From the NCBI GenBank assembly GCA_021791675.1, contig JAJYWE010000016.1, positions 1 through 32,241 of the forward strand: a stretch of DNA of 32,241 nt. Reading direction: 5' to 3'. The DNA is from Actinomycetes bacterium. Its GTDB lineage: Bacteria; Actinomycetota; Acidimicrobiia; Acidimicrobiales; JAKAOS01. The notes under the pieces are model-generated. The model was not told where the DNA came from. It searched no databases and saw nothing but the letters and a program-made list of their open reading frames with translations. Positions 14,910 through 31,919 of this stretch are shown one piece after another. Both the position numbers and the translations under genes were made by a program. Numbering within the stretch: the stretch's first letter is position 1; every line of letters begins with the position of its first letter.

Positions 14910-15871
14910 GCCACGGCCGCCGCAGCTCGGCGCTGGGTGAACTTGAGGAAGCCGAAGGAGAGGATGAACGTGCCGACCGCGAGCAGCACGGCGATCGCCG
15001 CAGCGTAGTTCGGGTTGTTGAAGGTGAAGGCCTGCGTGTAGGCCATCAGGTTCGGGGTGTAGGTACTGGTGATGGTGCCGGAGAGCGTCCGCATCACCTC
15101 TGGCTCGCTGAACAGCTGCAGCGTGCCGATGATGGAGAAGACCCCGGTGAGCACGAGTGCCGGGAAGACCAGCGGGATCTTGACCCTCGTGGCCACCTTC
15201 CAGTCGGTGGCCCCGTCCAGGCGGGCCGCCTCGAAGAGATCCCGTGGCAGCGCCTGGAGCGCGGCGAAGATGATGAGCATGTTGTAGCCGGTGTACTCCC
15301 AGGTGACGATGTTCGCGATGGACCAGAGGGCCAGGTTCTGGCCGAGGAAGTCCACGTGGCCGACCGGCGTGTGGCCGAGGATGCTCACGATGGGACTGAT
15401 CCCCGGCACGTAGAGGAAGCCCCACAGGATGGCTGCGAGCACGCCCGGGATGCCGTAGGGGAGGAAGAACGCGAGCCGGAAGAAGCGGCGGAGCTTGACC
15501 CGACCCCAGTCCAGGAGGAGCGCGCACGTGAGCGCGAGGCCCAACATGACCGGGATCTGCACCACGCCGAACAGCAGCATCCGGAGCACCCCGCTCGTGA
15601 AGGCGGGGTCCGTGAGCGCGGTCCCGTAGTTGTGGAGCCCGACGAAGTGCTGCGAGGTCGCCCCCGACAGCCCGAGCCCGGACGTCGAGACCGAGAAGAG
15701 GCTGATGTAGATCGAATAACCGATCGGGATCAGGATGAAGACCGCGAACAGCAGGAGGAAGGGAGTGAGGAAGAGCAGCGGGGCTGCGATCTTCCGGCTC
15801 GAGCGCCCCCGGCGCACTCTCGCACGCTGGGGCGCTACCTCCTCCGTCGTGACCACCGCTGCCGTCGACAT
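14906..15871 (-). CDS. ABC sugar transporter permease (MalF/UgpA-like)
   Basis: The 321-residue protein has a positively charged N-terminus (RRGRSSRK) before TM1 (LLFLTPFLLLFAVFILIPIG). About six segments follow, with the EAA loop LFEAARLDGATDWKVATRVK, characteristic of the MalF-type CUT1 permease. It pairs with the next permease and with the binding lipoprotein to carry oligosaccharides across the membrane. The start ATG 15871 is preceded by a GAGGAGGGGGAG purine run. A 335-bp gap with a stem-loop separates it from the binding-protein gene, which probably lowers its expression relative to that gene. Confidence 0.9.
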   Translation of the reverse strand: MSTAAVVTTEEVAPQRARVRRGRSSRKIAAPLLFLTPFLLLFAVFILIPIGYSIYISLFSVSTSGLGLSGATSQHFVGLHNYGTALTDPAFTSGVLRMLLFGVVQIPVMLGLALTCALLLDWGRVKLRRFFRLAFFLPYGIPGVLAAILWGFLYVPGISPIVSILGHTPVGHVDFLGQNLALWSIANIVTWEYTGYNMLIIFAALQALPRDLFEAARLDGATDWKVATRVKIPLVFPALVLTGVFSIIGTLQLFSEPEVMRTLSGTITSTYTPNLMAYTQAFTFNNPNYAAAIAVLLAVGTFILSFGFLKFTQRRAAAAVA

Positions 15872-15940
15872 CTCCCCCTCCTCCTCGGGCCCTCGTGGCC
15901 CTTCGACTCCTGAACCGTCCCCGCCAGCGGCGCAACGACT

Positions 15941-16032
15941 GCCGGTCACGCACCGGGACCTCCGCCGGTCACGCACGGGGAACACCCGCCTGTCACGCAG
16001 GGGAGGCCCGCCGCTACGCACCGGGAAACCCC
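15941..16032. repeat. Four imperfect ~23-bp tandem repeats
   Basis: Units begin at about 15941, 15964, 15988 and 16010, with the shared core GCCGGTCACGCACCGGGAAC and small changes (for example TGTCACGCAGGGGAGG in the third and a missing base in the fourth). They lie in the transcribed spacer of the operon, ~70 bp upstream of the MalF-like gene. Function unknown. Confidence 0.8.
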
Positions 16033-16156
16033 CTCGCGCTCGCCTCCTCGACACCCGGCAACGCCCGCTGGCCACGCCACGCCACGCTGGCAGCGCGCCT
16101 TGCGCGCTCGTCGCAGCCGCCCGGAGCGCGCACCTGGTTCCGGCCCGGGCGCGGGC

Positions 16157-16197
16157 CCGCACCCTCCCCGACCGTCAACGGGTCAGGGAGGGTGCGG
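16157..16197 (-). terminator. Strong intercistronic stem-loop after the binding-protein gene
   Basis: CCGCACCCTCCC pairs with GGGAGGGTGCGG in a 12-bp stem, and inside it GACC pairs with GGTC around the loop GTCAACG. It starts 10 bp after the TGA of the solute-binding gene. With no U-tract it is more likely a partial terminator or mRNA-stabilising structure than a full stop. Confidence 0.65.
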
Positions 16198-16206
16198 TGG
16201 GCGCTC

Positions 16207-17571
16207 CTACCCGGCCCGGACGCTGAAGCCCTGGGACTTCATGAGCGACAGCGTCTGGGACTGCACGGACTGGAGGACCGCCCCGAGCGACGGACCGCCG
16301 GTCACCGACTTCGCGAACCCGTCGGCCATCTGGGTGAAGGTCTGGCTCATCACCGGTCCCCAGGTCCAGTTCGGGTCGGTGTTCGCCGCGGACTGGCGGA
16401 AGACCGTGAAGATGTTCTGCCCGCCGAAGAAGGCAAGTCCCGAGTTGACCTCGGGAAGCTTCTGCGCCTGGACCTCCGCGGGATAGAGCCCACCTGCCGA
16501 GATCAGCGTCTTCCAGCTGCTGAGGTTGGTGTTGAGCCACATCGCGAACTCGGCCGCCTGCTGGGGGTGCTTGGTGTCCTTGAACACCACGGTCGTCGAA
16601 CCACCCCAGCTGCTCTCGACCGGCGCGCCCGAGGTGCTCCACTGCGGCATCGGGGCCACTCGCCAGTCACCCTTCGTTCCGGGGGCGTTCGAGGCGATGG
16701 TGTTGTCGCCCCAGACGGCGGTCGGCCAGGTGGCGACGACACCGTTCTGGAGGTCGTGGTACCAGCCGTCGGCGAAGTCGGGCTCCACCTTGACCAGCTT
16801 CTTGTTGATGAGCTGCTGCCAGTAGTTCGCCACCTGCATGCTCGCCGCGTCGTCGATGTGGACCACCCAGCTCTGCCCCGAGATGGAGAACCATCGTGCC
16901 TGGTTCTGCCACGCCAGCGCCGAGAACCACTGCGTGTCCTGGGGCGGGAAGGCGGTGATGTAGATGTTCGGATTGTCGGCGTGGAGCGTTGCGGCATCAC
17001 TGGCGTACTGGGCCCAGGTCGTCGGCACCGGCAGGTGGTACTTCTTGAAGATGTCGGCCCGGTAGAAGAGCGCCGTCGGGCCGGTGTCCTGGGGGATCGC
17101 GTAGATCGCGCTGCCGAGCGTGACGGCGCTCCAGGCGGACGGGATGAAGTCCTGCTTCACCGAGGCGGCGCCATAGGGTGCGAGGTTCACCAGGCCTCCG
17201 ACGTGCTCGAAGTTCGGGAGCACCGAGTACTCGACCTGACCGAGATCGGGTGCGTTACCCGCCTGGAGTGCGGTGAACATCTTGGCGTAGGTCCCTGCGT
17301 TACCCGAGGTGGTCTCGTCCAGCGTGACGTGGATTCCCGGGTGGGTCTTGTTGAAGAGGTTCACCGAGGCCTGGATGCCGGGCACCCAGGACCAGAAGGT
17401 GAGGTTCACGGTTCCGGCAGAGCTGGTCTTCCCGCGTGCGCTCGCCGTGCTCGTGGTGGAACCGGACGAGCCGGTGCCGGAGCTCGAGCTGCACGCAGCG
17501 AGAGCCAGTGAGGCTGCGGCAGCAGCCAGCCCGAGGCGCGCGACGCCTCGACCACGCCAACGTCTTGTCAT
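16207..17571 (-). CDS. ABC transporter extracellular sugar-binding lipoprotein
   Basis: The 454-residue protein begins MTRRWRGRGVARLG, then a hydrophobic signal and lipobox SLALAAC (acylated Cys near residue 28), followed by a Ser/Gly/Thr linker. The mature part has the family-1 solute-binding pattern: VNLTFWSWVPGIQASVNLFNKTHPGI, MFTALQAGNAPDLGQVEYS, YAIPQDTGPTALFYRADIF and the C-lobe with QQAAEFAMWLNT. Tryptophans along the cleft (for example WSW, WFS, WTWG) suit carbohydrate stacking. ATG 17571 is preceded by GGGGGAAG at 4 bases, better than upstream in-frame starts that would bury the signal peptide. It is the first gene of the galactoside operon. Confidence 0.92.
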   Translation of the reverse strand: MTRRWRGRGVARLGLAAAAASLALAACSSSSGTGSSGSTTSTASARGKTSSAGTVNLTFWSWVPGIQASVNLFNKTHPGIHVTLDETTSGNAGTYAKMFTALQAGNAPDLGQVEYSVLPNFEHVGGLVNLAPYGAASVKQDFIPSAWSAVTLGSAIYAIPQDTGPTALFYRADIFKKYHLPVPTTWAQYASDAATLHADNPNIYITAFPPQDTQWFSALAWQNQARWFSISGQSWVVHIDDAASMQVANYWQQLINKKLVKVEPDFADGWYHDLQNGVVATWPTAVWGDNTIASNAPGTKGDWRVAPMPQWSTSGAPVESSWGGSTTVVFKDTKHPQQAAEFAMWLNTNLSSWKTLISAGGLYPAEVQAQKLPEVNSGLAFFGGQNIFTVFRQSAANTDPNWTWGPVMSQTFTQMADGFAKSVTGGPSLGAVLQSVQSQTLSLMKSQGFSVRAG

Positions 17572-17633
17572 GTGCTTCCCCCGTTGCTCGATCGCCGGCA
17601 CCGCTTCCGGAGAGCTTCCGCCGCTCGGAGCTC

Positions 17634-17700
17634 GTGCGATGTTGTTGTGTTCTCGGCGGCCGTGCGGGACACGACCGCCTGAGAACCGACACGATCGCAC
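17634..17700. promoter_or_regulatory. Long interrupted dyad, candidate operator in the divergent promoter
   Basis: GTGCGAT (17634-17640) pairs with ATCGCAC (17694-17700). Inside it GTTCTC-GGCGG (17649-17659) pairs with CCGCC-T-GAGAAC (17675-17686), with a single extra T. All arms share one centre near 17667. The right outer arm overlaps the -10 region of the binding-protein operon. The most likely ligand is the DeoR protein encoded at the operon's end. Confidence 0.6.
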
Positions 17701-17719
17701 AGGCTCACTCGATTGTCAA
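17691..17719 (-). promoter_or_regulatory. Candidate sigma-70-type promoter of the galactoside transport operon
   Basis: On the minus strand TTGACA (17719-17714) is a perfect -35 box. It is followed after 17 bases by GATCGT (17696-17691), a weak -10. The 5' leader to ATG 17571 would be about 110 bases and includes most of the dyad, as expected for repressor control. Confidence 0.5.
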
Positions 17720-17774
17720 CGCGCCCTCGCACGCACTCCGGCCACAGCACCACGGGGGACGGCCCTCGGCGAGT

Positions 17775-17786
17775 TACGCTGCGGCG
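17775..17786 (+). promoter_or_regulatory. Candidate -10 box for a leaderless alpha-galactosidase transcript
   Basis: TACGCT (17775-17780) fits TANNNT and ends six bases before ATG 17787, so the transcript would start at the start codon. No Shine-Dalgarno sequence is present. The -35 position shows no consensus, so activation or weak basal activity is possible. Confidence 0.35.
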
Positions 17787-19304
17787 ATGCACGACGAGCT
17801 CTCCGACGAGTCCTTCAGCCCGGTGGCAGCGCTCGAGATCGATCCGTCTCGGGCGCTGATCTACGAGCACGGCTGGCAGTCGTGGAGCCCCGCCGGCGCC
17901 TACCGACCGGGGGAGGACTCACCCCGGCCCAAGCTGGCTCGGACGCAGATCATGGGCTTCCGGCCAGGATCTCCAGCACCGAGGGCGGTCTTCCAGGGCG
18001 AGGGACTCCTCGCCGTCGACCCCGGTGACGGCGGGCCGGTCGAGATCTTCTCGAGCCCCGACCCCTGGCACGCAGTGGCCTCCATCCGCGCGCGGGCCCA
18101 CGAGGGGCGGGTCGTGGTCTCCGCGAACGGACCGGTGGAGCGACGGACGAGCCGTGAGCACGAGCGGCTCGGCGCTGCCCTCGGGAGCTGGGCGACGGAG
18201 CTCGCAGCCAGGCGAACGGGCTCGCGCAGCCCCGCACACCTCGGACCCCCGGTCGAGCTACGCCCACTCGACCCGGTGTGGTGCAGCTGGTACTGCCTCT
18301 GGCGCGGCGTCACGGCACCCGACGTGGCGGCGGCGATCTCGGGGATCGATCGTGCGGGACTCGAGGTCCGGGTCGTCCAGGTCGACGACGGTTGGCAGGC
18401 AGGGATCGGGGACTGGGACGAGGTCCGGGAGGGCTTCGGCGACCTCGGATCCCTGGCGGGTCGGATCCGAGACGGCGGCCGCGCGGCAGGTATCTGGGTG
18501 GCACCGTTCCTGGTAGGGAGCGAGAGCAGGCTCGCGCGCACCCACCCCGACTGGCTGGTGGGAGCGGCGGACGCGGGAGAGAACTGGGAGCAACGGCTCG
18601 GGGTGCTCGACGTGACCCATCCCCAGGCCGCCGCGTACCTCACCACGAGCCTGCGCGCCCTCGTCGACATGGGGTTCGACCTGTTCAAACTGGACTTCCT
18701 CTACGGCGGCGCGATCGAGGGCCGGCGCCACGCCGACTGTTCCGGACTGGACGCCTACCAGGAGGGGATGCGCGTCGTCTCCGAGGCGATCGGACCCGGG
18801 CCTACCCTCCTCGGCTGCGGCGCACCCCTCCTCCCGAGCATCGGCTGGGTGCATGCGATGCGGATCGGCCCGGACATCGCGCCCTGGTTCGCACCGCCCG
18901 AGGGAGACCTGAGCCTCCCCGGGGGCCTCTCGGCGCGCCTCGCCACCCGCGCCCGCGCCTTCGCCCACGGCCGGTTCTGGGTCAACGATCCGGACTGCCT
19001 CCTCGCCCGTCCCGGGGTCGAGCGCCGGCAGGCCTGGGCATCGCTGCTCGGCCGCATGCCGGGCACCCTGGCAGCCTTCAGCGACCTCCCGGACGACCTC
19101 GACCCCTGGGGCATCGATGCCGTGCGGCGGCTGCTCCGTCCTGCGACCACGACACCCCTCGACATCGACCTCGACGAGCTGCTGGCACCGGAGGACCTGG
19201 ACGAGCTCCCGGCACGAGACGGCCGGGAGGCCCTCGACACCGGGGACAACGACACCGCGAACAGGGACACCGCGAACAGGGACGCACGCGCGAGCGGCGC
19301 CTGA
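17787..19304 (+). CDS. Alpha-galactosidase (GH36-type, clan GH-D)
   Basis: The 505-residue protein carries clan GH-D hallmarks. HGWQSWSP (about residue 28) belongs to the N-terminal beta domain. PVWCSWYC opens the TIM barrel and VVQVDDGWQ follows. GIWVAPFLVG is next. The nucleophile is Asp303 in LFKLDFLYGG, and the acid/base is Asp363 in MRIGPD. It releases terminal alpha-galactose from raffinose- or melibiose-type sugars. There is no signal peptide, so it acts in the cytoplasm, next to the divergent importer. It is shorter than full GH36 enzymes (~700); the usual C-terminal beta-sandwich is replaced by an acidic tail with the duplicated pentapeptide DTANR. It could also act on related alpha-linked sugars. 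Confidence 0.87.
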   Translation: MHDELSDESFSPVAALEIDPSRALIYEHGWQSWSPAGAYRPGEDSPRPKLARTQIMGFRPGSPAPRAVFQGEGLLAVDPGDGGPVEIFSSPDPWHAVASIRARAHEGRVVVSANGPVERRTSREHERLGAALGSWATELAARRTGSRSPAHLGPPVELRPLDPVWCSWYCLWRGVTAPDVAAAISGIDRAGLEVRVVQVDDGWQAGIGDWDEVREGFGDLGSLAGRIRDGGRAAGIWVAPFLVGSESRLARTHPDWLVGAADAGENWEQRLGVLDVTHPQAAAYLTTSLRALVDMGFDLFKLDFLYGGAIEGRRHADCSGLDAYQEGMRVVSEAIGPGPTLLGCGAPLLPSIGWVHAMRIGPDIAPWFAPPEGDLSLPGGLSARLATRARAFAHGRFWVNDPDCLLARPGVERRQAWASLLGRMPGTLAAFSDLPDDLDPWGIDAVRRLLRPATTTPLDIDLDELLAPEDLDELPARDGREALDTGDNDTANRDTANRDARASGA

Positions 19305-19510: not shown

Positions 19511-20071
19511 ATGCCCACGGCACCGTTCGAGACCGCAACGCGCTTCAGCGTGGAGTGGGAGCTCGTCCATCCCGAGCCCCCCTCGCTCCCTCCGCCGGCG
19601 ACCCTGCGGCCGTCGGTCGGACTGCGGTGGTGCCCTGCCTGCGTGGTGACGCCGCTCGAGGCCGCGGACGGCGCTGCCCCTACCTGGTGCCGGACCTGCG
19701 GGTCCACCTGGCAGCCAGACGCCCTGCCGACCGAGCGGCCGGCCGCGACAAGGGGTCTCGGCGAGCCCGAGCGGAGACGCCCCGGCGCAACGGGGGGTCA
19801 GGGTGAGTCCGTTCCGACGACAACGGAGCGAGCGTCCCGAGTCGACGACACCTGGCCGGCAGGGGACGTCACCCCAACCGATCGTGGCCGGGCGGCGGCG
19901 TCGGGTGATCCAGCCAGTCCCGTACGTGCGGCGGCAGCGCGATCGACGAGTCCAGCCCGGGGGCAGGACGCGCCGGGCCGAACACCATCCGCGCCGGGAG
20001 CTCGCCCGCCCAGAGCGAGAGCAGCCCGTCGGGGCCGTCGCCGTCGTCCGGCGGGCCGGCACGAACCTTGA
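19511..20071 (+). CDS. Possible small zinc-ribbon protein
   Basis: ATG 19511 is preceded by AAGGAG with a 6-base gap, one of the best ribosome-binding sites in the window. The first ~80 residues contain a zinc-ribbon pattern CPAC...CRTCG (Cys-x2-Cys, 18 residues, Cys-x2-Cys). The frame then continues as Arg/Ala/Pro-rich low complexity to a stop at 20069-20071, running ~200 bp antisense through the end of the PPOX-family gene. That tail is probably not functional, or the true end is lost by a frameshift. No family recognised. The gene lies ~200 bp after the alpha-galactosidase. Confidence 0.4.
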   Translation: MPTAPFETATRFSVEWELVHPEPPSLPPPATLRPSVGLRWCPACVVTPLEAADGAAPTWCRTCGSTWQPDALPTERPAATRGLGEPERRRPGATGGQGESVPTTTERASRVDDTWPAGDVTPTDRGRAAASGDPASPVRAAAARSTSPARGQDAPGRTPSAPGARPPRARAARRGRRRRPAGRHEP

Positions 20072-20624
20072 CCGAGGCCTCCGCGAGGCCGAGGACGACG
20101 ACCGTGGTCTGCGCGAGCTCTGCCGCAGTCGGTGCCCGGGCGTAGTCCCACTGTCCGGGGAGGACCTGTTCGGAGATCGCGCGCAGCGCAACCAGCTTCT
20201 CGTCGGGATCGCGGAGCGCCTGCGCCTCGCCGTAGATCATCGCCGCCCGGTAGTTGGCCGCCTCGTTGAACACCGAACGGGCGAGCACGATCCCGTCGAG
20301 ATGCGTGACGGTGACACAGACCGGGTTACCCCGGGCGCGTCGCAAGCTCTGGCTGGCCACCGATCCGTGGACGTAGAGCCGATCACCTGCGCGCCCGTAG
20401 GTCGTCGGTACGACCATCGGCCAGCCGTCCACGACGACACCGAGGTGGCAGAGGAACCCGGCGTCGAGGACCGCCTCCAGCGCAGCGCGGTCGTGGCTCC
20501 CCTGCTCCGGGAAGCGCCGAAGGCGCGTCCGCTCGCTCGGGGCTGCGAGCCCCCCCTCCGCCCGCTCGCTCGGGGCTGCGAGCCCCCCCTCCGCCCGCTC
20601 GCTCGGCGATTCCTCTCCCGTCAC
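19869..20624 (-). CDS. Pyridoxamine-5'-phosphate-oxidase-like FMN-binding protein
   Basis: The 251-residue protein matches the flavin-nucleotide-binding PPOX-like group. It has a helix ALEAVLDAGFLCHLGVVVDG, the strand WPMVVPTTYGRAGDRLYVHG, then SVASQSLRRARGNPVCVTVTH, DGIVLARSVFNEAANYRAAM and a C-terminal WAGELPARMVFGPARPAPGL segment. Relatives bind FMN or a related deazaflavin and act in flavin redox chemistry or haem/bilin handling; the substrate here is unknown. GTG 20624 is 9 bp downstream of the Rrf2 stop, so the two are probably co-transcribed. The N-terminus has a duplicated 11-residue unit (SERAEGGLAAP twice, then SER) from a 33-bp tandem repeat, and may be unstructured. Confidence 0.85.
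   Translation of the reverse strand: MTGEESPSERAEGGLAAPSERAEGGLAAPSERTRLRRFPEQGSHDRAALEAVLDAGFLCHLGVVVDGWPMVVPTTYGRAGDRLYVHGSVASQSLRRARGNPVCVTVTHLDGIVLARSVFNEAANYRAAMIYGEAQALRDPDEKLVALRAISEQVLPGQWDYARAPTAAELAQTTVVVLGLAEASVKVRAGPPDDGDGPDGLLSLWAGELPARMVFGPARPAPGLDSSIALPPHVRDWLDHPTPPPGHDRLG
20531..20606. repeat. 33-bp tandem repeat with internal hairpin, inside the PPOX-family gene
   Basis: Two exact 33-bp copies (20531-20563, 20564-20596) plus a 10-bp partial copy. Each full copy contains GGGGCT-GCG-AGCCCC, a perfect 6-bp stem with a 3-base loop. Being a multiple of 3, copy-number change keeps the frame. On the mRNA the two stems sit just after the start codon. Confidence 0.9.
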
Positions 20625-20633
20625 CCCGTCACC

Positions 20634-21776
20634 CTAGGTCACAGGCACCGGGCCGGGGCCCGCCGCGAGCCCGCTCGGGCGGGACCGGTCACCCTCCGAC
20701 ACGGGTGTCGCTCCCGCCGACCTCCGCCGCCGGCCCGAGCTCGCACGCTCCACGAGGCGTGCGCGTCGGGGTGGGCCACCCCTCGCAGTCCCGTCCAGGG
20801 CGAGGCTGCGGAGGAACGCGCGCGCCCCCACCCGCCCGAGGCGCGACACCAGCTCGAGGTCGGCGAGCTCGGCGTCGGGCGACGCGCCCTTTCCCCTGGA
20901 GGGCGGGCGGAGGAGGCCCGCGAGGCTGAGCTCGCTCCCCCCGTCGGGCCCAGCCAGGACGGTCAGGGTCAGATCGGCATGCGACGACGACCCGTCGGCA
21001 CCCGTCGCCTCCCAGGCAAGCTCGAACCTTCGCGGGGGCGCAGCGACCAGTAGGGGTCGGGATCGCGCCCCGCCGGGAACGCGCAACGTTGCGGCCGACG
21101 CGCCCTCGACCCCGACCGGGTGGACCGCGGCCGAGACCTCGACCGGCGCCCACGGCGGCGTGCGCGGGCGGGTGCGGAGCCGGACGGCGTCGGCTTCCCG
21201 GTAGGCCCGCGCAACGGCGCGACCGACGCGTTCGGGCTGCGCCACCCACGCGGCGAGCGCGTCGGGATCGCTCTCCAGCTGGATCCGGTCGGACAGCGCG
21301 ATGCTCGTCGGAATCGGTCGGTGGGAGTCGAGAGGGCGACCGCTACTCGAGCCCGCGAGCGCCTGGTCGCGCGCCGCAAGCGTCGCAAGGCTGGTGGTGG
21401 CGAGTGCGTCGCGTAGCGCGTCCGCCGCCGAGCGCCACGTCTCGTGGAGCGGGCAGACCGAGTCCCAGCGGCACGGCCCATCGCCGAGCGCGCAGCGCGC
21501 AGCGCGCAGCGGACCCTCTGCCGCCTCCACGACGTCGAGGAGGGTGATCGCCTCGGGCGCGCGGGCGAGGCGGTAGCCGCCGTCCCGGCCCGAACGCGAC
21601 TCGGCGAGCCCCGCTCGCACGAGGACCGTCACGATCTGGGGAGCGAAGGTGAGCGGCACACCCATCTCGGCAACGATCTCGCGGACCTTGCGCCACTCGC
21701 CCGTGGGCCAGGCCCTGGCCAGGGCCAGCGCCGAGCGCATCACGTAGTCCCCCCGCTTGGAAAGGCTCATGTCCAT
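20634..21776 (-). CDS. Rrf2-family iron-sulfur regulator with long C-terminal extension (paralogue 1)
   Basis: Of 380 residues, the first ~75 form the Rrf2 winged helix (LSKRGDYVMRSALALA; VPLTFAPQIVTVLVRAGLAE; SGRDGGYRLAR). Cys95, Cys102 and Cys108 in RCALGDGPCRWDSVCPLHE (C-x6-C-x5-C) are positioned to hold an iron-sulfur cluster, as in IscR, NsrR and RsrR. After residue ~150 comes an extension of ~230 residues absent from ordinary Rrf2 proteins (140-170 residues). It includes FELAWEATGADG, SSSHADLTLTVLAG and a terminal helix, SRPBCC-like by pattern. The start ATG 21776 has a -10 box exactly 6 bases upstream (leaderless). It diverges from the polyferredoxin operon and precedes the PPOX-family gene by 9 bp. 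Confidence 0.85.
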   Translation of the reverse strand: MDMSLSKRGDYVMRSALALARAWPTGEWRKVREIVAEMGVPLTFAPQIVTVLVRAGLAESRSGRDGGYRLARAPEAITLLDVVEAAEGPLRAARCALGDGPCRWDSVCPLHETWRSAADALRDALATTSLATLAARDQALAGSSSGRPLDSHRPIPTSIALSDRIQLESDPDALAAWVAQPERVGRAVARAYREADAVRLRTRPRTPPWAPVEVSAAVHPVGVEGASAATLRVPGGARSRPLLVAAPPRRFELAWEATGADGSSSHADLTLTVLAGPDGGSELSLAGLLRPPSRGKGASPDAELADLELVSRLGRVGARAFLRSLALDGTARGGPPRRARLVERASSGRRRRSAGATPVSEGDRSRPSGLAAGPGPVPVT

Positions 21777-21782
21777 GCGGCA

Positions 21783-21811
21783 ACTGTATGGGATCGCTTT
21801 TGATTAGTCAA
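21783..21811 (-). promoter_or_regulatory. Leaderless promoter of Rrf2 paralogue 1
   Basis: Minus strand: TTGACT (21811-21806), 17-base spacer, TACAGT (21788-21783), then six bases to ATG 21776. The start of transcription would coincide with the ATG. The -35 lies in the palindrome AGTCAATGACT (21806-21816), which suggests autoregulation. Confidence 0.65.
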
Positions 21812-21844
21812 TGACTTGACGTAGGGTTGCGCTTGGAATATTGT
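21806..21844 (+). promoter_or_regulatory. Promoter and putative operator of the polyferredoxin operon
   Basis: Plus strand: -35 TTGACG (21816-21821), 17-base spacer, -10 TATTGT (21839-21844). The -35 boxes of the two divergent promoters are 4 bp apart. The perfect palindrome AGTCA-A-TGACT (21806-21816) covers the minus -35 and touches the plus -35, so one bound dimer could silence both. AT-rich bases here contrast with the surrounding GC-rich DNA. Confidence 0.65.
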
Positions 21845-21893
21845 TCTGGGCAGGCCGACACCGAGCCAGACCCGACCGAGCCAAGGAGGAACG

Positions 21894-23522
21894 ATGACGA
21901 TCCTCGCCCCACCGGACCAGCAGGCGGCGACGCCGAGAGCTCCGGGCCTTCCCGACCCGATCCCCGTGGCGCTGCACCTGCGACCCCCGAAGCGCGAGGG
22001 AGCCGAGGCCCGTTTCGCGGGCACCGACCCGCCGAAGGGGTGGGACGTCTCCCGCCACCCCCGCGTCGCCCGCCTCCTGCGGAGCCGGCGTCTCCAGTTC
22101 TTCCTCATCCTCCCGAACCAGATCGTCTTCTGGCTCGTGATCTTCCTCGGCCTGCTCGGCACGGTCGTGCCCGGTCTCAACTTCGGGACGGCGATCACCT
22201 GGTACATCTGGTTCTGCCTGGTCTTCGTGATGATGGTCGTCGTCGGCCGGGCGTGGTGCGCGATGTGCCCCTTCGGCGGCTTCGCGGAGTGGGTCCAGCG
22301 CCGGACCTTCTGGCAGCGGACCCAACGCACCCTCGGCCTCGGCCGCAAGCTCCCCGAGCCGATCGCCCGCTACGGGCTGCTCATCTCGGTCGGCTCGTTC
22401 CTCCTGCTCACCTGGATCGAGGAGTTCTTCAACATCGCAGGCCCCGGCAACCCCTGGGACACCAGCTACATGGTGCTCGGCATCGTGGCCTCGGCACTGC
22501 TGTTCTTCCTCGTCTTCGAGCGGCGCACCTTCTGCCGCTACGCCTGCCCGCTCTCCGCGCTCATCGGCACGGTCGGCGCGATGGGCTCCGCGGCGGGCTT
22601 TCGCACCCGGGACCGCGAGGTCTGCCTGAGCTGTGCGACCAAGGACTGCATGCGCGGTGGGGAGGAGGGCTACGGCTGCCCCTGGTACACCTGGCCGGGG
22701 AGCGCGGACTCGAACCTCACCTGCGGGCTCTGCAGCGAGTGCTACAAGGCCTGCCCGTCGGAGAACGTCGGCTTCTTCCTCCAGCCCCCCCTCACCTCGG
22801 TGATCGCGCCGAAGCGGCGCCGGGCCGACGTGGCGTGGGCCGTCGCCCTGCTCTGGGGTCTCGTCGTCTTCCAGCAGGTCAACGCCACCAACGGCTACGC
22901 AGTGCTCGACGCCTGGCTCAACCGTGCAACGCACCTCGGGTATCCGAACCCGATCGACTACCTCGGGATCATCGCCGTGGTCGCGCTCGCGTTCGCCGGG
23001 ATCGCCTGGGGCATGTCGCGCCTCCTCGGGCGCGACCCGAGCCCCTCGACGGGTCAGGTCCGCGGCGTCCTCGGCACGCTCCTCCCGACCGGCTCTGCAG
23101 TCGGGAGTCCGAGCGGTGCCTTCGTGGACCGGCCGAGCCGCTTCCGGTCCTTCTTCGTCCCGCTCGCCTACGGGATGATCCCGGTGGTCGGCGCCGACTA
23201 CTTCGCCCGGCAGCTCCCGAAGTTCTTCAAGCACGCCTCTCGGATCGTGCCCGCCATCGGCGCATGGTTCGGCGAGGGCTCCACCCACTCGAGCCTCTAC
23301 CACCTCCGGCTCCTGTCGAACCCCGGGATCGTCGCCGTACAGGTCGCAGTCATCGCCCTCGGCACGCTCGGGAGCGCCTGGGCAACCTGGAAGATCGCCC
23401 AGCGGGACCTGGCTCCGGTCTCCTCCCACCCGGCGGCGACCCGCTACGCGAGCGTCGGCGTCGCCATCGCCCTCGGCGTCGCCGCGGGCTTCCTCTACGT
23501 GATCATGCACGCCGCATCCTAA
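21894..23522 (+). CDS. NapH/NosR-like membrane polyferredoxin
   Basis: The 542-residue protein has about six membrane segments and a chain of cysteine motifs. There is a membrane-edge pair WCAMCPFGG (Cys122, Cys125), and a second pair FCRYACPLSA (Cys214, Cys218). A cluster site follows with Cys244, Cys247 and Cys252, then CGLCSECYKACP (Cys277, 280, 283, 287). The paired CxxCP/CxxxCP plus ferredoxin domain is the signature of the NapH/NosR/YccM group, which passes electrons between the quinone pool and reductases. It lacks the N-terminal FMN-binding periplasmic domain of true NosR. ATG 21894 follows AAGGAGG by 4 bases. The next gene starts 9 bp after its stop, with AAGGAG overlapping the TAA. 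Confidence 0.88.
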   Translation: MTILAPPDQQAATPRAPGLPDPIPVALHLRPPKREGAEARFAGTDPPKGWDVSRHPRVARLLRSRRLQFFLILPNQIVFWLVIFLGLLGTVVPGLNFGTAITWYIWFCLVFVMMVVVGRAWCAMCPFGGFAEWVQRRTFWQRTQRTLGLGRKLPEPIARYGLLISVGSFLLLTWIEEFFNIAGPGNPWDTSYMVLGIVASALLFFLVFERRTFCRYACPLSALIGTVGAMGSAAGFRTRDREVCLSCATKDCMRGGEEGYGCPWYTWPGSADSNLTCGLCSECYKACPSENVGFFLQPPLTSVIAPKRRRADVAWAVALLWGLVVFQQVNATNGYAVLDAWLNRATHLGYPNPIDYLGIIAVVALAFAGIAWGMSRLLGRDPSPSTGQVRGVLGTLLPTGSAVGSPSGAFVDRPSRFRSFFVPLAYGMIPVVGADYFARQLPKFFKHASRIVPAIGAWFGEGSTHSSLYHLRLLSNPGIVAVQVAVIALGTLGSAWATWKIAQRDLAPVSSHPAATRYASVGVAIALGVAAGFLYVIMHAAS

Positions 23523-23531
23523 GGAGCGACC

Positions 23532-25736
23532 ATGACCTTCCTCGGAACCACTGAACCCCAGATCCTTGCCCTCGGGACCAACCGAGCGGCACAGCCCACG
23601 CAGCCGCTCGTCCACGTCCTCGGCGACCGCTGCGCGGGCTGCCAGGAGTGCGTGGTCCGCTGCCCCACCGGGGCGCTCGACCTCGACGTCACGACCTGGA
23701 CCGTCCTCGTCGATCAGGACCGCTGCGTGGCCTGCGGGCAGTGCGTGCGGACCTGCCCGTTCTCGGCCATCACGGTCGCAGGCGCTCCTCAGGTGTCCCC
23801 ACGTCTGGCACTCGAGGTCGAGCATCCCGCCTCGTTGGAACACGACCGCCACGAGACCAGGAGGGGGATCGCAACCTGGGTGGACGCGCTCGCCGAGGCG
23901 GCCCGCTGCCTCGACTGCCCCGACCCCACGTGTGTCCGCGGCTGCCCGGTCCACAACGACATCCCTGGCTTCATCCGTGCGCTCGGAACCGGTGACCTGG
24001 ACCAGGCGCACGAGGTCCTGCGACGGACCACGTTCCTCCCCGACGTCTGCTCCCGGGTCTGTGACCAGGCTCTACAGTGCGAGGGGGCCTGTACGTGGTC
24101 CCTCGCAGGTGCCGAGCCGGTCGCGATCGGCGCGCTCGAGCGCTTCGTCGCCGACAACGCGCCCGTCCCTCCGCCGGCCGCCCCGACCCGCCCCGACGCG
24201 GGGGCGGCCGACGGGCTCTCGGTCGCAGTCGTTGGGTCCGGTCCCGCAGGGCTGTCCGCGGCGGCGGAGCTCGTCGGGGCCGGGGCGACCGTGACCCTCT
24301 ACGAGCAGCGCGACGAGCTCGGGGGCCTCCTCCGCTGGGGCATTCCGGACTTCACCCTCCCCGACGTGGTGGCGCGCCGCCTTCCCGACGCGCTCCTCGC
24401 AGCGGGCGTCGAGGTCCGCTTCGGCTACACCCTCGAGCCGGCCGGACTGGAGCAACTCCGTAGCGACCACGACGCCGTCGTCCTCGCTACGGGCGCGTCG
24501 CTCCCGCTCGGCATCCGTCTCCCGGGGAGTGACCTCGACGGCGTCTGGGACGCGACCCGCTTCCTTGTCGAGGCGCGTCACGCGCTCACGACCGGTGGTC
24601 CACTCCCAGGCGTGGCGCCAGAGACGGACCGGCCAACGGTGCTCGTGCTCGGGGGAGGGAACACCGCGATGGATGTCGCCCGCTCCGCCCGGCGGCTCGG
24701 TGCGGCCGCGATCTGTGTGGACTGGATGGATCCGCGCTTCGCTCCCGTCCGACCGGACGAGCTGGCCGAGGCGCGTGCCGAAGGAGTCGAGGTCCGCTTC
24801 TCCCGGACGCTGACCGGGCTGAACGGCGAGGAGGGCCGCGTGCGCAGCGCCGAGCTCGCCGCCACCGTCCAGGAGCGCGCGGCCGAGCGGCCCCGGGTCG
24901 TCCCGAACAGCATGGAGCGCCTCTCGGTGGACCTCGTGGTGACGGCGATGGGGTACCGCATCGATCCCGACCTCGCCGCGCTCGCGGGGAGTGTGCCCGT
25001 CAAGAAGGAGGTGCCGGCGGTGCCGGACCGACGCTGGATCGGGAGTGGGATCCTGGCGGCGCCCGCGCCGCCGTTCGCGCGCCGGCAGCCGGTCGGGCGC
25101 CTAGCCGTCGGGCGAGAGCAGGCTCGCGTCCTCGCGGGCCTGCCCCGTCTCGAGCGCACCTGGGTGGTGGGGGACGCGCTCGTCGGGCCGTCGACCGTCG
25201 TCGAGGCGATGGCGCAGGGGAAAGTGGCAGCCCAGGCGATCGTGCACCACGCCCCGCGACGTCCTGCCGAGCCGTGGGTCGCCCCGCGGCGGGTGCTCAT
25301 CGGGGTCGAGAGCCGGGGTGGCACCACCGCGGCCCACGCAGCTGCGCTCGCGAACGGCCTCGTGCGGGCTGGCCATGAGGCGCGGGTGCTCCCGCTCCGC
25401 GACATCCGAGCCGGGGAGCTCGCCTGGGCGGACGCCCTGGTCGTCGCAACCTGGGTGGAGGGGTTCGTGCTCGCGGGGGCGGGGCCAGCGAAGGCGACCC
25501 GCTCGTGGCTGGCGACGCTCCCGCCCTTGGCAGGGATGCCGGTCGGCCTGCTCTGCACCTACGCCGTCTCGCCCGGGCGCACGCTCCAGCGCATGCGCGC
25601 CGAGGTCGAGCGCCACGGCGGCCGGGTCGTGGCTGGCGCGGCCCGCTCTGGCCGGCCAAAGGGACACCAGCTGGATGGCCAGGGCCTCGGGGTCCTCCTC
25701 GACGCTTTCTCTCGCCCGAACGCAGACGCCGCCTAG
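23532..25736 (+). CDS. Fusion: 2[4Fe-4S] ferredoxin, GltD-like FAD/NAD(P) oxidoreductase, flavodoxin-like domain
   Basis: The 734 residues form three modules. Residues 30-80 carry two CxxCxxCxxxC cluster motifs (Cys34, 37, 40, 44 and 65, 68, 71, 75). Residues ~110-570 match the glutamate-synthase small-subunit/DPD-type module. It has CLDCPDPTCVRGCPVHNDIP (Cys126-138), further cysteines 173-187, an FAD GSGPAGLSAA loop near 235, an NAD(P) LGGGNTAMDVA loop near 372, and the closing GPSTVVEAMAQGK helix. Residues ~575-734 look flavodoxin-like (VLIGVESRGGTTAAHAAALA; ADALVVATWVEGF). It probably moves electrons between NAD(P)H, flavins and ferredoxin-type centres, with the membrane polyferredoxin as partner. 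No glutamate synthase large subunit is nearby. Its stop shares CTAG with the convergent Rrf2 gene. Confidence 0.88.
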   Translation: MTFLGTTEPQILALGTNRAAQPTQPLVHVLGDRCAGCQECVVRCPTGALDLDVTTWTVLVDQDRCVACGQCVRTCPFSAITVAGAPQVSPRLALEVEHPASLEHDRHETRRGIATWVDALAEAARCLDCPDPTCVRGCPVHNDIPGFIRALGTGDLDQAHEVLRRTTFLPDVCSRVCDQALQCEGACTWSLAGAEPVAIGALERFVADNAPVPPPAAPTRPDAGAADGLSVAVVGSGPAGLSAAAELVGAGATVTLYEQRDELGGLLRWGIPDFTLPDVVARRLPDALLAAGVEVRFGYTLEPAGLEQLRSDHDAVVLATGASLPLGIRLPGSDLDGVWDATRFLVEARHALTTGGPLPGVAPETDRPTVLVLGGGNTAMDVARSARRLGAAAICVDWMDPRFAPVRPDELAEARAEGVEVRFSRTLTGLNGEEGRVRSAELAATVQERAAERPRVVPNSMERLSVDLVVTAMGYRIDPDLAALAGSVPVKKEVPAVPDRRWIGSGILAAPAPPFARRQPVGRLAVGREQARVLAGLPRLERTWVVGDALVGPSTVVEAMAQGKVAAQAIVHHAPRRPAEPWVAPRRVLIGVESRGGTTAAHAAALANGLVRAGHEARVLPLRDIRAGELAWADALVVATWVEGFVLAGAGPAKATRSWLATLPPLAGMPVGLLCTYAVSPGRTLQRMRAEVERHGGRVVAGAARSGRPKGHQLDGQGLGVLLDAFSRPNADAA

Positions 25737-26848
25737 GACTCGGCATCGGCTCCAGACGAGGCGCCTTCGAGTGCTGCGGCAACCTGACGGAGAAAGCGGC
25801 GCACGACGCGACGCGCCTCGGCCTCGACCGTCTCGAGTGACCTCGAGGGAGGAAGCCCGACCCGCTGGTGCCACTGGGCATCGAGACGGAGCTCGCTTCG
25901 CTCACCGTCCAGCTCGTGCACCGTGAGGCCGCCCTCGAGACGACTTCCCCGCCCAGGCACCCCAAGCCGCCAGCCGAGGAGGAACCGAGCGCGTTCGGGA
26001 GCTGCTCCCGGCGCCGCCTCGTCCGCTGCCGCCTCCCCTGCTGCCCCGTCCGCTGCCGCCGCGCCTGCGGTGGCGACGGGGCGGCGGGCGGTCGAGCTCG
26101 CGACCGCGCCGCCTCCGAGCACGGGAGTGTCGGGGGTACCGAGTGGGATCGGAACCACGCTCGCGTCCAGTACGGCAGCGAACGGCGCGTCGGCTGGCCT
26201 TCCCCCGTCGTCGCGTGCCTGCTCTCCCGGGTCCCTCGCTGGACGCCAGGCGCCGCGGAGCGAGGGGGCGATCGCCTCGGCCACGAGCGCCGCGATCGGG
26301 GGGCGGCCGAGGCCGAGCGCAGCGCTCGCCACCTCGGCCCCGCACTCCACCTGGATCCGATCGACGAGGAGGAACGAGCCGAGCTCGGCTCGGTGGGAGT
26401 CGGCCGGCACGGCGTAGGTGCCCGCCTCGAGCGCGGCGTCTCGCGAGGCCAGCTCGGCCAGCGTCGTCCGGGACAAGAGCTCCCGCAACGCCGCGGTGGC
26501 CGCCGTCCAGGTCTCGTGGAGCGGGCAGACGTTCTCCCAGCGGCAGGGACCCTCCCCGAGCGCGCAGCGCTCCGATCGCAGCGGGCCCTCGCCCGCCTCG
26601 ATCACCTCGAGCACGCTGACCTCGGAGGGCGGCCGGCTCAGCCGGTAGCCGCCGGTCCGGCCCGCCCGCGAGCTCGCGAGGCCCGCACGGACGAGGTCGG
26701 CGAGGATCTGGGAGGCGAAGGTCTGCGGGACGTCGGTCTCCTCCACGACCTCCCGGATCTTCCGCCAGCTCGCGGTGTCGTAGGCCCGAGCCAGCGAGAT
26801 CGCCGACCTCACGACGTAGTCACCGCGTTTGGAGAGCGTCAGGTCCAC
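25733..26848 (-). CDS. Rrf2-family iron-sulfur regulator with long C-terminal extension (paralogue 2)
   Basis: The 371-residue protein aligns without gaps to paralogue 1 over the first ~110 residues (LTLSKRGDYVVRSAISLARA; TFASQILADLVRAGLASSRAG), with cysteines at the same positions 95, 102 and 108 (RCALGEGPCRWENVCPLHE). The extension diverges more. A Gly/Ala-rich linker precedes FLLGWRLGVPGRG, LEGGLTVHELDGERSELRLD and a C-terminal helix ETVEAEARRVVRRFLRQV, again SRPBCC-like by pattern. GTG 26848 matches the paralogue's ATG position. Its stop overlaps that of the electron-transfer fusion gene tail to tail. It may respond to the same signal as paralogue 1, or control other genes. Confidence 0.85.
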   Translation of the reverse strand: MDLTLSKRGDYVVRSAISLARAYDTASWRKIREVVEETDVPQTFASQILADLVRAGLASSRAGRTGGYRLSRPPSEVSVLEVIEAGEGPLRSERCALGEGPCRWENVCPLHETWTAATAALRELLSRTTLAELASRDAALEAGTYAVPADSHRAELGSFLLVDRIQVECGAEVASAALGLGRPPIAALVAEAIAPSLRGAWRPARDPGEQARDDGGRPADAPFAAVLDASVVPIPLGTPDTPVLGGGAVASSTARRPVATAGAAAADGAAGEAAADEAAPGAAPERARFLLGWRLGVPGRGSRLEGGLTVHELDGERSELRLDAQWHQRVGLPPSRSLETVEAEARRVVRRFLRQVAAALEGASSGADAES

Positions 26849-29141: not shown

Positions 29142-31919
29142 TCAGCGCCCGAGGCCGAGGCTCCCGAAGTCCCGGGCCCGGTCCGGCACGCCTTGGCGCT
29201 CGGACTCCGGGGCGAGCCCTCGCGCACGAGCGACCTCGGAGCCGAGGCGAGGCGCCCGGCCGGCTGCTCGTCCGGAACCCCGCTCCAGTGCCTCGGCACG
29301 CTGGAGGCGCGCACGGAGGTCCGCCCGGGCCGCAGCCCGGGCAAGGGCATGCGGCGATCCGTCCCGGCCGAAGGAGTCGGCGAGCACGGCGCCGGCGACC
29401 TCCCGCCACGCCAGGCGCGCGACGACGCCCGGCGGCGGCCGGCCGATCAGCTCTTCGACCCGGGGATCGCGGGCCACGTCGGCAGCCACGCCGAGCGCGG
29501 CCTCGAGTGCCCGGGCGGCAGCCCTGGCACCGGGACGCCCACCGTCCGCTCCAACCCCGGCCGCGCCGGGTAGGGCCGACTCGAAGGGCTCGCGCTCCGC
29601 CCCGGCCACCTGGGGGGGCTCGGCCAGCACTCCGCCTGCGAGGCCCGTTCGAGCCAGCTCCGCGAGAAGGCCAGGTGGCGCGACGACGTGGTGGGCGACC
29701 CGTGACACCCCCGCGGTCGGGATGGCCGAGCGTCCGGCATCCCCGGGAGGTGGGGCCCCGCGCGCGCCAGCGTCACCACCGGGTCCCGCCAGCATGGCCG
29801 CGCTCCCGTGGACGAGTGCCGGCTCCTCGCCCAGCCAGCGGGCCTCACCCGGCGTCACCACCCAGCAGGGGCGCGCGCCGAGGTCGCGCAACTGCTCCGC
29901 CCTCAGTGCGACCGCAACCCCACCGGGGAGCTCGAGGACCACTCTCGGCCCCTCCGCCCCGAGGACGCGGGCCCGGTGGCGGAGCGGCTGGCCCTCGTGC
30001 GCACGGACGCCGCGGACCATGTCCCCGATCCGCCAGGCACGACCCGGACCACCGACAACGGCTCCGAGGGCGGGGCCGAGCACGCCGAGCCTTGCGAGCT
30101 CGTCGCGCAGCGCCGACTCGAGCAGCGCCGCCGTCGGGACATCGGGTGCCACGACCAGGGGTGGGAGGCCCGCCGCGGCGCGCGGAGCAACGGTCGCGGC
30201 ACACCCTTCCACCACCCCTGCGAGGTCCGCTGCGAGCACCACGTCCCGCTCGGCGAGGGGCACGCGAACCCCCGTCGGACGCCCCGGGCTGCCGCCGCCG
30301 TGGCCGGCTCGCGAACCCCCCGGCGAGGGCGCCTCGCCTGGGTGTTCCCCCGCCATCGGCGGGTAGGGAGGATCGGGAAGGGTCTCTGCGAGCACCCGCC
30401 CCCGCCCGGCCCTCCCGTCGACGACGACCGCCACGACGAGACCGCCGCTGCTCTGGCGCCCGATCGAGGCAAGCGTCTCGAGGGGGAGCCGGTCGGCACC
30501 GAGGAGCACGAGGGCGTCGCCGGCGACCCATCCCCGGACACCCACGGCGAACGGGAGTCCCGTGGCCGCCTCACCAGCGAGTGCCAGCGCGGGCGACGCG
30601 GCAACCCCCCGGACCTGACGACCAGCGGCGGCGAGCTCACGTACCAGTGCCCCGACGCGATCCTCGGCGCCGGAGACGGGAATCCCGGGAGCGAGGACGG
30701 TCCATCCCGCGCCTCCTCGCTCCGCACAGCGAAACGAGCTCGCGAGCCGCCCCTCCGCGCGGACCACCTCGGTGGCCTCCCAGCGCTCGAGCCCCGGCCT
30801 CCCCTCCACCGCCACGACCGCCGGAGAAGAGAGGAAGGCCGCGCTGGCCCGCTCGATCTCCGTTCGGCGGAGCCCGCCGGGCGACGCGTCGCAGAGCGCG
30901 GCGACCACGTCTGCCCGACGCATCCTGCCGCGCTCCCCACCCGCCCGGAGCGCCAGCACGAAGGGATCGAGCTCGCCAGGTGCGCCGGGGGCGGCTCCGG
31001 AACCGGTCGGCAGCCACCGCGCCCCGGGGTCGGGGCGCTCGCCGAGGCGGTCCCACCGCGTGCGGAGCTCGTCCAGCGGGAGGGGCGCGCGTTTCGCAGG
31101 TCGCGTCGTCCGGGCAGCCGCGCCCGCCGCTCGCGCCCCACCGGCCTGCCAGCGCGCGAGCTGGTCCTCGACCGCCGCACGGCGGGAGGAGAGGCCGGCC
31201 TCCGTGCTCGGAGCCACGCCCGCCAGGCGCACCCGGCCACCGGGAAGGCTCTCGGCATCCAGACCGAGCGTGCGCAGCCGGTGCACGAGGTCCGCGACGT
31301 ACACCCGCCCGGCGGCGCCTGCCTCGGCGTAGAGCGAGCGACTGTCCAGCCCCGACCATCGCCCGTCCGGGCTCTGCGCCGCGTTCGCCAACACGATGTG
31401 GCTGTGTAGGTAGGGCTCGTGCGCGCGGTTCAGACGGTGGAAGAACACGGCGCCCACCGCGCCGCTGGTCACGAGGAGTTGCTCCGCGCCTCCGTCGCGG
31501 CGCCGGACACGGATGGCGTGGTCCTCGAGGTACGCGAGCGCCTCGGCGCAGGCTGCCCGGTGCGCGCGCTCGAGCGCCGGCCCCAGCGCCTCGTCGGCGA
31601 AGGCCCAGGTCACGGCGAGGCACTTGGGCGCGCCTGCGGTCACGTCCCACCCGGCGATGCGCCGGGCCTCCGCCCGGGACCCGAGCGGGAGGCCGCGGAC
31701 AGGCTCGACGCCGCCGAGCACGCTGGCGAGCGCTAGGGGCTGCACGGGGCCGGAGAGCCCGAGCCAGGCGGCTCCCTTGCCCACCCAGTGGCCGTCTCCC
31801 GGTCCTTCGGGCGAGCCGACTCCCGTGTCCGACCTCGGGACGGAGCCGTCGTTCGGCTCGAGCCCGAGGCTCCTCAGGTAGTAGCGCTCGGCCCCGCTGC
31901 GCAGCGGGGTCAGGTGCAT
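29142..31919 (-). CDS. MobF/TrwC-type relaxase homologue with degenerate helicase region
   Basis: The 925-residue protein begins with adjacent Tyr13-Tyr14 (ERYYL) and WVGKGAAWLGLSG. GWDVTAGAPKCLAV matches the GxDxTxSAPKSVSV motif of TrwC relaxases. A three-histidine metal site follows (His161, His172, His174, with the same 11- and 13-residue spacing as TrwC). The relaxase core therefore looks usable. The following part keeps the helicase-like order but lacks a Walker A loop: GWTVLAPGIPVSGAED stands where GPAGTGKT would be, and ALVLLGADRL replaces the DEA box. No TraG coupling protein, T4SS genes or integrase is near. It may be a chromosomally retained relic or a repurposed nicking protein. 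ATG 31919 fits the family N-terminus. Confidence 0.8.
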   Translation of the reverse strand: MHLTPLRSGAERYYLRSLGLEPNDGSVPRSDTGVGSPEGPGDGHWVGKGAAWLGLSGPVQPLALASVLGGVEPVRGLPLGSRAEARRIAGWDVTAGAPKCLAVTWAFADEALGPALERAHRAACAEALAYLEDHAIRVRRRDGGAEQLLVTSGAVGAVFFHRLNRAHEPYLHSHIVLANAAQSPDGRWSGLDSRSLYAEAGAAGRVYVADLVHRLRTLGLDAESLPGGRVRLAGVAPSTEAGLSSRRAAVEDQLARWQAGGARAAGAAARTTRPAKRAPLPLDELRTRWDRLGERPDPGARWLPTGSGAAPGAPGELDPFVLALRAGGERGRMRRADVVAALCDASPGGLRRTEIERASAAFLSSPAVVAVEGRPGLERWEATEVVRAEGRLASSFRCAERGGAGWTVLAPGIPVSGAEDRVGALVRELAAAGRQVRGVAASPALALAGEAATGLPFAVGVRGWVAGDALVLLGADRLPLETLASIGRQSSGGLVVAVVVDGRAGRGRVLAETLPDPPYPPMAGEHPGEAPSPGGSRAGHGGGSPGRPTGVRVPLAERDVVLAADLAGVVEGCAATVAPRAAAGLPPLVVAPDVPTAALLESALRDELARLGVLGPALGAVVGGPGRAWRIGDMVRGVRAHEGQPLRHRARVLGAEGPRVVLELPGGVAVALRAEQLRDLGARPCWVVTPGEARWLGEEPALVHGSAAMLAGPGGDAGARGAPPPGDAGRSAIPTAGVSRVAHHVVAPPGLLAELARTGLAGGVLAEPPQVAGAEREPFESALPGAAGVGADGGRPGARAAARALEAALGVAADVARDPRVEELIGRPPPGVVARLAWREVAGAVLADSFGRDGSPHALARAAARADLRARLQRAEALERGSGRAAGRAPRLGSEVARARGLAPESERQGVPDRARDFGSLGLGR

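Follow-up and report, generated by a model that had tools for sequence, protein, structure and literature searches.

Computational analysis of contig JAJYWE010000016.1 (positions 1 to 32,241; GCA_021791675.1; Acidimicrobiales), the 32,241-nucleotide stretch called the window here, revealed a conserved two-gene operon for a membrane polyferredoxin (PolyFd) and a ferredoxin-GltD-flavodoxin fusion (FdFAD), Rrf2 regulators with conserved ligand residues and an SRPBCC-like fold, a 25-bp operator, and a regulon that extends past the operon. The explanation that we consider best is a conserved, Rrf2-SRPBCC-controlled electron-transfer regulon of Acidimicrobiales-like actinobacteria, and as a whole it stands about an even chance of being right. 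Its regulatory part is probably correct, while a role for PolyFd-FdFAD in supplying client enzymes is plausible without being favored. An initial annotation of this DNA had proposed an electron-transfer pathway under an Fe-S-type Rrf2 protein, and this proposal is supported by three conserved cysteines and an aspartate in the regulator and by an operator that lies over both divergent promoters. It described neither the SRPBCC-like fold of the extensions nor the operator, nor the further regulon genes (radical SAM, NMO-like and the diiron-ferredoxin trio).

The PolyFd-FdFAD module and its conservation

The window contains all five genes of the initial annotation, with the two Rrf2 genes, divergent rrfA and convergent rrfB, flanking polyFd and FdFAD (Table 1). 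The FdFAD and RrfB genes are convergent and share 4 bp at their 3' ends (25733-25736), at the FdFAD stop. Because the family N-terminus reads L-S-K-R-G-D-Y, the RrfB start was placed at 26848, though the listed open reading frame extends further upstream. The PPOX-type gene does lie beside the module as described, but it is absent beside all other fetched loci; it was therefore rejected as a module component and is only a local neighbor. Elsewhere in the window are sugar ABC transporter genes (13986-19304, with a solute-binding protein at 16207-17700), a melibiase-like glycosidase (17436-19304) and, on the minus strand, a TrwC/MobF-type relaxase gene (29142-31919; PF08751, 194 bits). The presence of the relaxase gene on the contig of the module makes an integrated mobile element possible.

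Table 1. Features of the PolyFd-FdFAD locus in the window
Feature	Position	Strand	Basis
PPOX-type (Pyridox_ox_2) flavoprotein gene, downstream of rrfA	19869-20624	-	PF12900, 133.8 bits
RrfA, Rrf2 domain at residues 5-135 (D10, C95, C102, C108) plus SRPBCC-like C-terminal domain at ~159-332	20634-21776	-	PF02082, 99 bits
Coding stretch of the RrfA SRPBCC/Bet v 1-like domain	20781-21302	-	AlphaFold2 element order; Polyketide_cyc2 in homologues
rrfA promoter-like elements: TTGACT (21811-21806), 17 bp, TACAGT (21788-21783)	21783-21811	-	Read from sequence
Operator TTTGATTAGTCAATGACTTGACGTA, 25-bp imperfect palindrome	21799-21823		Conserved in PolyFd promoters
polyFd promoter-like elements: TTGACG (21816-21821), 17 bp, TATTGT (21839-21844)	21816-21844	+	Read from sequence
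PolyFd, membrane polyferredoxin, 542 aa	21894-23522	+	Fer4_5, 2.8e-11
FdFAD, ferredoxin-GltD-flavodoxin fusion	23532-25736	+	Fer4_20, Pyr_redox_2, Fer4
RrfB, second Rrf2-SRPBCC protein, convergent	25733-26848	-	PF02082, 100 bits

Of 347 genomes of the order, 71 encode PolyFd; they belong to 16 families, and the PolyFd relatives across the order are mostly 55 to 78% identical. In a named genome collection, 236 stretches encode a PolyFd relative, and the 80 that were retained are nearly all from Actinomycetota MAGs. FdFAD directly follows PolyFd in every fetched close relative whose contig does not end there, an adjacency far beyond chance. The two-gene operon of the initial annotation is thereby upheld. 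A divergent Rrf2 gene lies upstream of PolyFd in 54 of 90 loci; an Rrf2 gene is found elsewhere in the locus in 20, and in 16 the stretch covered has none. Bracketing by two Rrf2 paralogues, which the initial annotation had described, is real in the window but rare elsewhere: Rrf2 genes stand both divergently upstream and downstream of PolyFd-FdFAD in 8 of the 90 loci, the majority show a single Rrf2 gene, and the convergent form was seen only in the window and at locus L051.

Other genes recur around the module. A PAS histidine kinase and/or a NarL-type response regulator is encoded nearby in 37 of the 90 loci; the pair is found at L026 (5979-8128, minus strand) and in about 30 further loci, often divergent from PolyFd. 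This two-component system may be a second regulator of the PolyFd operon or a second reader of its operator. A predicted NHL/PQQ-type beta-propeller gene adjoins PolyFd-FdFAD, TIGR04053 or an extra Rrf2 gene at L102, L110, L085, L046 and L149. Distant PolyFd homologues (34 to 36% identity) from other families of the class, at L032-L035, are accompanied by a short exported protein with a PCYCGC motif and by a cupredoxin-like protein, with neither FdFAD nor Rrf2 beside them. They were therefore rejected as members of the same module and apparently form a separate, copper-linked system.

AlphaFold2 models PolyFd as a multihelix membrane protein. It carries C-x2-C-P, C-x3-C-P, one C-x2-C-x2-C-x3-C-P cluster motif and four more invariant cysteines, and an alignment places 12 cysteines in invariant columns in membrane and loop context. 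PolyFd shares with NapH, NosR and MauN its Fer4_5 family, membrane helices, Cys-Pro motifs and a 4Fe-4S motif. Unlike them, it is partnered by the soluble FdFAD rather than by NapG or NosZ. Matches to the NapH and NosR models are weak (NapH, 30.4 bits against a cutoff of 213, which leaves PolyFd outside that family), and the fold search gave no PDB match below an E value of 0.6. NapH-type proteins react with quinol. Since PolyFd has no solved structural relative, its putative reactivity with quinone is drawn from this analogy.

FdFAD consists of a 2x[4Fe-4S] ferredoxin with eight cysteines, a GltD/NfnB-type FAD oxidoreductase (residues ~97-580) and a flavodoxin-like domain (~594-734); its nearest PDB entries are the PreT-type subunit, Nfn and GltD. 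Like GltD, NfnB, PreT and AegA, it has a Fer4_20 Fe-S domain and two Rossmann domains, one for FAD and one for pyridine nucleotide, and its N-terminal ferredoxin is as in AegA. The flavodoxin part named in the initial annotation is genuine: Flavodoxin_3 exceeds the cutoff in two relatives, and the window copy matches it weakly. This tail is missing in about 14 of about 70 long FdFAD copies. Enzymes of the GltD/NfnB family use a basic YRR-type motif for the 2'-phosphate of NADPH. At this position, FdFAD has a conserved C-V-D-W-M in place of a YRR-type motif, and the use of NADPH is therefore doubtful; as judged from these residues, we are unsure of the pyridine-nucleotide step. The D-W residues, the C-terminal flavodoxin and the PolyFd neighbor in all loci seen set FdFAD apart from GltD, NfnB, PreT and AegA.

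The Rrf2-SRPBCC regulators and the operator

Both window regulators belong to the Rrf2 superfamily, with TIGR00738 scores of 96 and 102 bits against a cutoff of 73.3. RrfA and RrfB are 59 to 61% identical over about 170 N-terminal residues. As the initial annotation had observed, they have C-x6-C-x5-C and long extensions in common, each extension exceeding 200 residues. The cysteine triad was kept in 75 of 78 aligned Rrf2 proteins, and an aspartate occupied the position of NsrR Asp8 in 76, with glutamate in the other 2. In NsrR, the cluster is ligated by three cysteines and Asp8 (PMC5411485). By these three cysteines and the fourth ligand residue, the regulators of the module are predicted to be of the Fe-S type (NsrR/RsrR/IscR-like) and to carry a cluster. 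IscR itself is a poor fit, since the score was 58 bits against 207.55 and no isc or suf genes were recognized in the recurrent neighborhood.

The initial annotation had called for structure prediction of the extensions, and AlphaFold2 with Foldseek gave an SRPBCC/Bet v 1-like fold. The RrfA model, built with an alignment of 55 members that all match Rrf2, had a mean pLDDT of 83.4; its extension, whose strands and helices mostly exceeded 90, runs strand-helix-helix-four strands-long helix. Foldseek matched the N-terminal part to CymR, RsrR, NsrR and IscR, and the extension to CoxG (2ns9; E value, 4e-4), Bet v 1 and PYL receptors. Polyketide_cyc2 matched the extension in 15 of the 55 homologues (best, 7e-7); the extensions of RrfA and RrfB themselves gave no Pfam match. 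Because of the element order, the Foldseek matches and the Polyketide_cyc2 matches, the extension is assigned, at the level of the model, as an SRPBCC/Bet v 1-like domain. This fold usually holds a hydrophobic ligand. The extension differs from CoxG, PYL and Bet v 1 in being fused to an Rrf2 DNA-binding domain and in the reduced sheet of its model. Nothing relevant on a fusion of Rrf2 and SRPBCC was found in the literature searched, most subscription journals not being covered.

RrfA falls among the upstream-divergent copies in the tree (100/97), on a long branch (1.11), and RrfB in a group of mostly downstream copies (100/98). As these groups are different and strongly supported, the two genes are not products of a recent duplication, and in this tree their split looks old. 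The recognition helix of RrfA (TFAPQIVTVL) is unusual compared with the consensus (TFASQILADL), which RrfB resembles. The suggestion that the second regulator adds a different sensing range draws some weak support from the old split, but most loci have a single regulator. In several loci with two Rrf2 genes, moreover, the extra copy is short or lacks the aspartate or the cysteines, and in the window RrfA has the unusual helix and RrfB no operator of its own.

The operator, a 25-bp palindrome with the consensus TAMGTNTAGYN5ACTNNACRTA, is found in 81 of 90 PolyFd promoters; the other 9 have no clear site. A count of exact palindromes with 5-base arms yielded nothing, and the operator surfaced only when the divergent regions were aligned from the Rrf2 start, often with two copies per region. 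The best sites scored 11 to 16 of 16 in all 45 divergent regions scored, while shuffled regions reached at least 12 in 5 of 900 cases. Because the weight matrix was built from the loci with divergent Rrf2 only, the 36 PolyFd promoters without divergent Rrf2 serve as an independent test, and 28 of them had an operator of at least 15 bits. The window site scored 23.5 bits, and the runner-up in the window 7.1; the former was the only match there, with 0.02 expected. No operator was found upstream of RrfB, where the best site scored 7.1 bits.

The polyFd -35 element lies inside the operator, which also covers the -35 element of rrfA, and this placement points to repression of both genes. The -10-side element of rrfA ends 6 bp before the ATG, and the rrfA transcript is likely leaderless, judging by these elements. 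The operator also precedes rrf2 genes that do not adjoin PolyFd. From its position and these autoregulatory sites, we infer that Rrf2 is its reader, and the operator is probably a specific DNA switch read by the Fe-S Rrf2-SRPBCC regulator. The system shares with Streptomyces NsrR and RsrR the Rrf2 winged helix, the three cysteines and the aspartate, a long palindromic operator, an autoregulatory site and a small regulon. It differs from them in the cysteine spacing, the added SRPBCC domain, and an operator and targets of its own.

Operator-bearing genes beyond the operon

When the 3.1-Mb genome of the window was scanned by pattern with up to 3 mismatches, the operator was found at the window site and at one other, which precedes a TIGR04053 radical-SAM gene by about 60 bp. 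The product of this gene scored 442 bits against a curated cutoff of 395, with the AhbD/NirJ models next. Of 163 operator matches in 1.40 Mb of loci, 149 lay in a PolyFd promoter; each of the remaining 14 preceded PolyFd, Rrf2, a diiron-type gene or TIGR04053. The operator stands before four radical-SAM genes, the TIGR04053 cases in relatives being at L055, L102 and L110, and in several genomes TIGR04053 and PolyFd are linked. In the fetched genomes of the order, almost every TIGR04053 gene lacks the operator; the copies fall into dissimilar subgroups, most of them without it. PolyFd and TIGR04053 occur in 71 and 76 of the 347 genomes, respectively, and together in 59 (Fisher P = 8e-39, with shared ancestry ignored), so that 12 PolyFd genomes are without TIGR04053. 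This co-occurrence supports a link between the two and does not prove it.

The operator also precedes 4 of 6 NMO-like genes (20 to 31 bits), which are present in 6 of 17 PolyFd genomes compared with 0 of 20 others. In two genomes, the NMO-like flavoenzyme gene has a perfect operator match upstream (L151, 4567-6057, and L149, 269-1870, both on the minus strand). A diiron trio, in which a diiron protein resembling AurF/R2lox is joined by a small protein and a two-cluster ferredoxin, has the operator upstream in several genomes (L155, 2308-5745; L075, 7504-8595). The small protein gave no Pfam match, and neither it nor the diiron protein matched a curated family above the cutoff. The diiron gene was present in only 4 of 30 genomes and was rejected as a universal partner. 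A membrane protein of 460 to 495 aa with no Pfam match has the operator just upstream in two genomes (L153, 219-1598, plus strand; L155, 4261-5745, minus strand).

Proposed mechanism and competing explanations

In the mechanism that we propose, the sensor would be a repressor of the Rrf2 family. Its N-terminal domain would carry an Fe-S cluster on three cysteines and an aspartate, in the style of NsrR and RsrR, and a hydrophobic ligand would probably occupy its C-terminal SRPBCC domain. An Rrf2 dimer on the palindrome over the -35 boxes would repress both divergent promoters, those of rrf2 and polyFd, until a change of cluster state (oxidation, NO or cluster loss), perhaps together with a filled SRPBCC pocket, ends repression. 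Once induced, PolyFd-FdFAD would pass electrons among the quinone side of the membrane, a pyridine nucleotide (NADH being a likelier candidate than NADPH) and ferredoxin or flavodoxin. Its clients under the same operator would be the TIGR04053 radical-SAM enzyme in this genome and the products of the NMO-like and diiron-plus-ferredoxin genes in relatives.

PolyFd-FdFAD might instead be the dedicated redox partner of TIGR04053, the latter being an AhbD-like enzyme for the oxygen-independent conversion of coproheme to heme when oxygen is too scarce for the oxygen-dependent ChdC. Haloferax volcanii relies on ChdC in oxic growth and on AhbD in anoxic growth (PMC5746218), and this makes the idea attractive here, where ChdC is nearly universal (29 of 30 genomes). 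The score of the TIGR04053 product, the operator before its gene in the window's genome and three relatives, the linkage to PolyFd and the co-occurrence are all in keeping with it. By the same count, however, loss of ChdC is ruled out as proof, and absence of ChdC therefore lends no support. We consider this explanation unlikely, since no TIGR04053 member with an experimentally tested function was found in the literature, the copies are dissimilar and missing from a dozen PolyFd genomes, and the operator also precedes genes for an apparent diiron oxygenase and the NMO-like flavoenzyme.

A general supply of reduced ferredoxin, in which NADH or quinol would be the electron source, possibly aided by bifurcation or proton motive force, and ferredoxin-dependent enzymes of aerobic autotrophs the users, with the other regulon genes as clients, is rather unlikely. 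It would suit the union of ferredoxin, NfnB-like flavoprotein and flavodoxin in FdFAD, a gene of the sulfite/nitrite reductase family close to the module in four loci, and the reported near universality of POR/OGOR in Acidimicrobiia (PMC11697166). Yet PolyFd is confined to a fifth of the order, against this reported near universality of POR/OGOR; the operon showed neither a pump subunit nor an NfnA/EtfAB partner; and a constitutive supply would need no such narrow operator. An NsrR-like response to NO, with a NosR/NapH-like PolyFd feeding the reduction of NO or N2O, is very unlikely. NsrR is the closest solved Rrf2 protein by sequence and is with RsrR among the fold matches, and the aspartate ligand and the weak PolyFd matches to NapH and NosR agree with such a role; but the regulators score 37 bits against the NsrR equivalog cutoff of 182, and no nor, nos or hmp-like gene was recognized among the recurrent neighbors or operator-bearing genes.

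Searches for the module, operator, regulon and TIGR04053 function found nothing relevant in the same literature, and no named pathway with this arrangement came to light; the initial annotation had likewise named none. All components of the proposed Rrf2-SRPBCC-controlled regulon come from known families; the domain fusion is apparently undescribed, and neither the operator nor the regulon turned up in that literature. The analysis yields a defined operator, a candidate regulator and a short target list in a little-studied group, one with iron-cycling acidophiles among its members. A more speculative and tentative extension is that Rrf2-SRPBCC proteins form a new class of two-input one-component regulators, which would respond simultaneously to an Fe-S cluster and to a hydrophobic ligand, such as a quinone or tetrapyrrole perhaps. 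In acidophilic actinobacteria, they would thereby control a membrane-to-ferredoxin/flavodoxin conduit that powers enzymes of the radical-SAM, flavin and diiron types. How low-potential electrons are supplied to radical-SAM and ferredoxin-dependent enzymes in aerobic actinobacteria is a question that this module makes testable.
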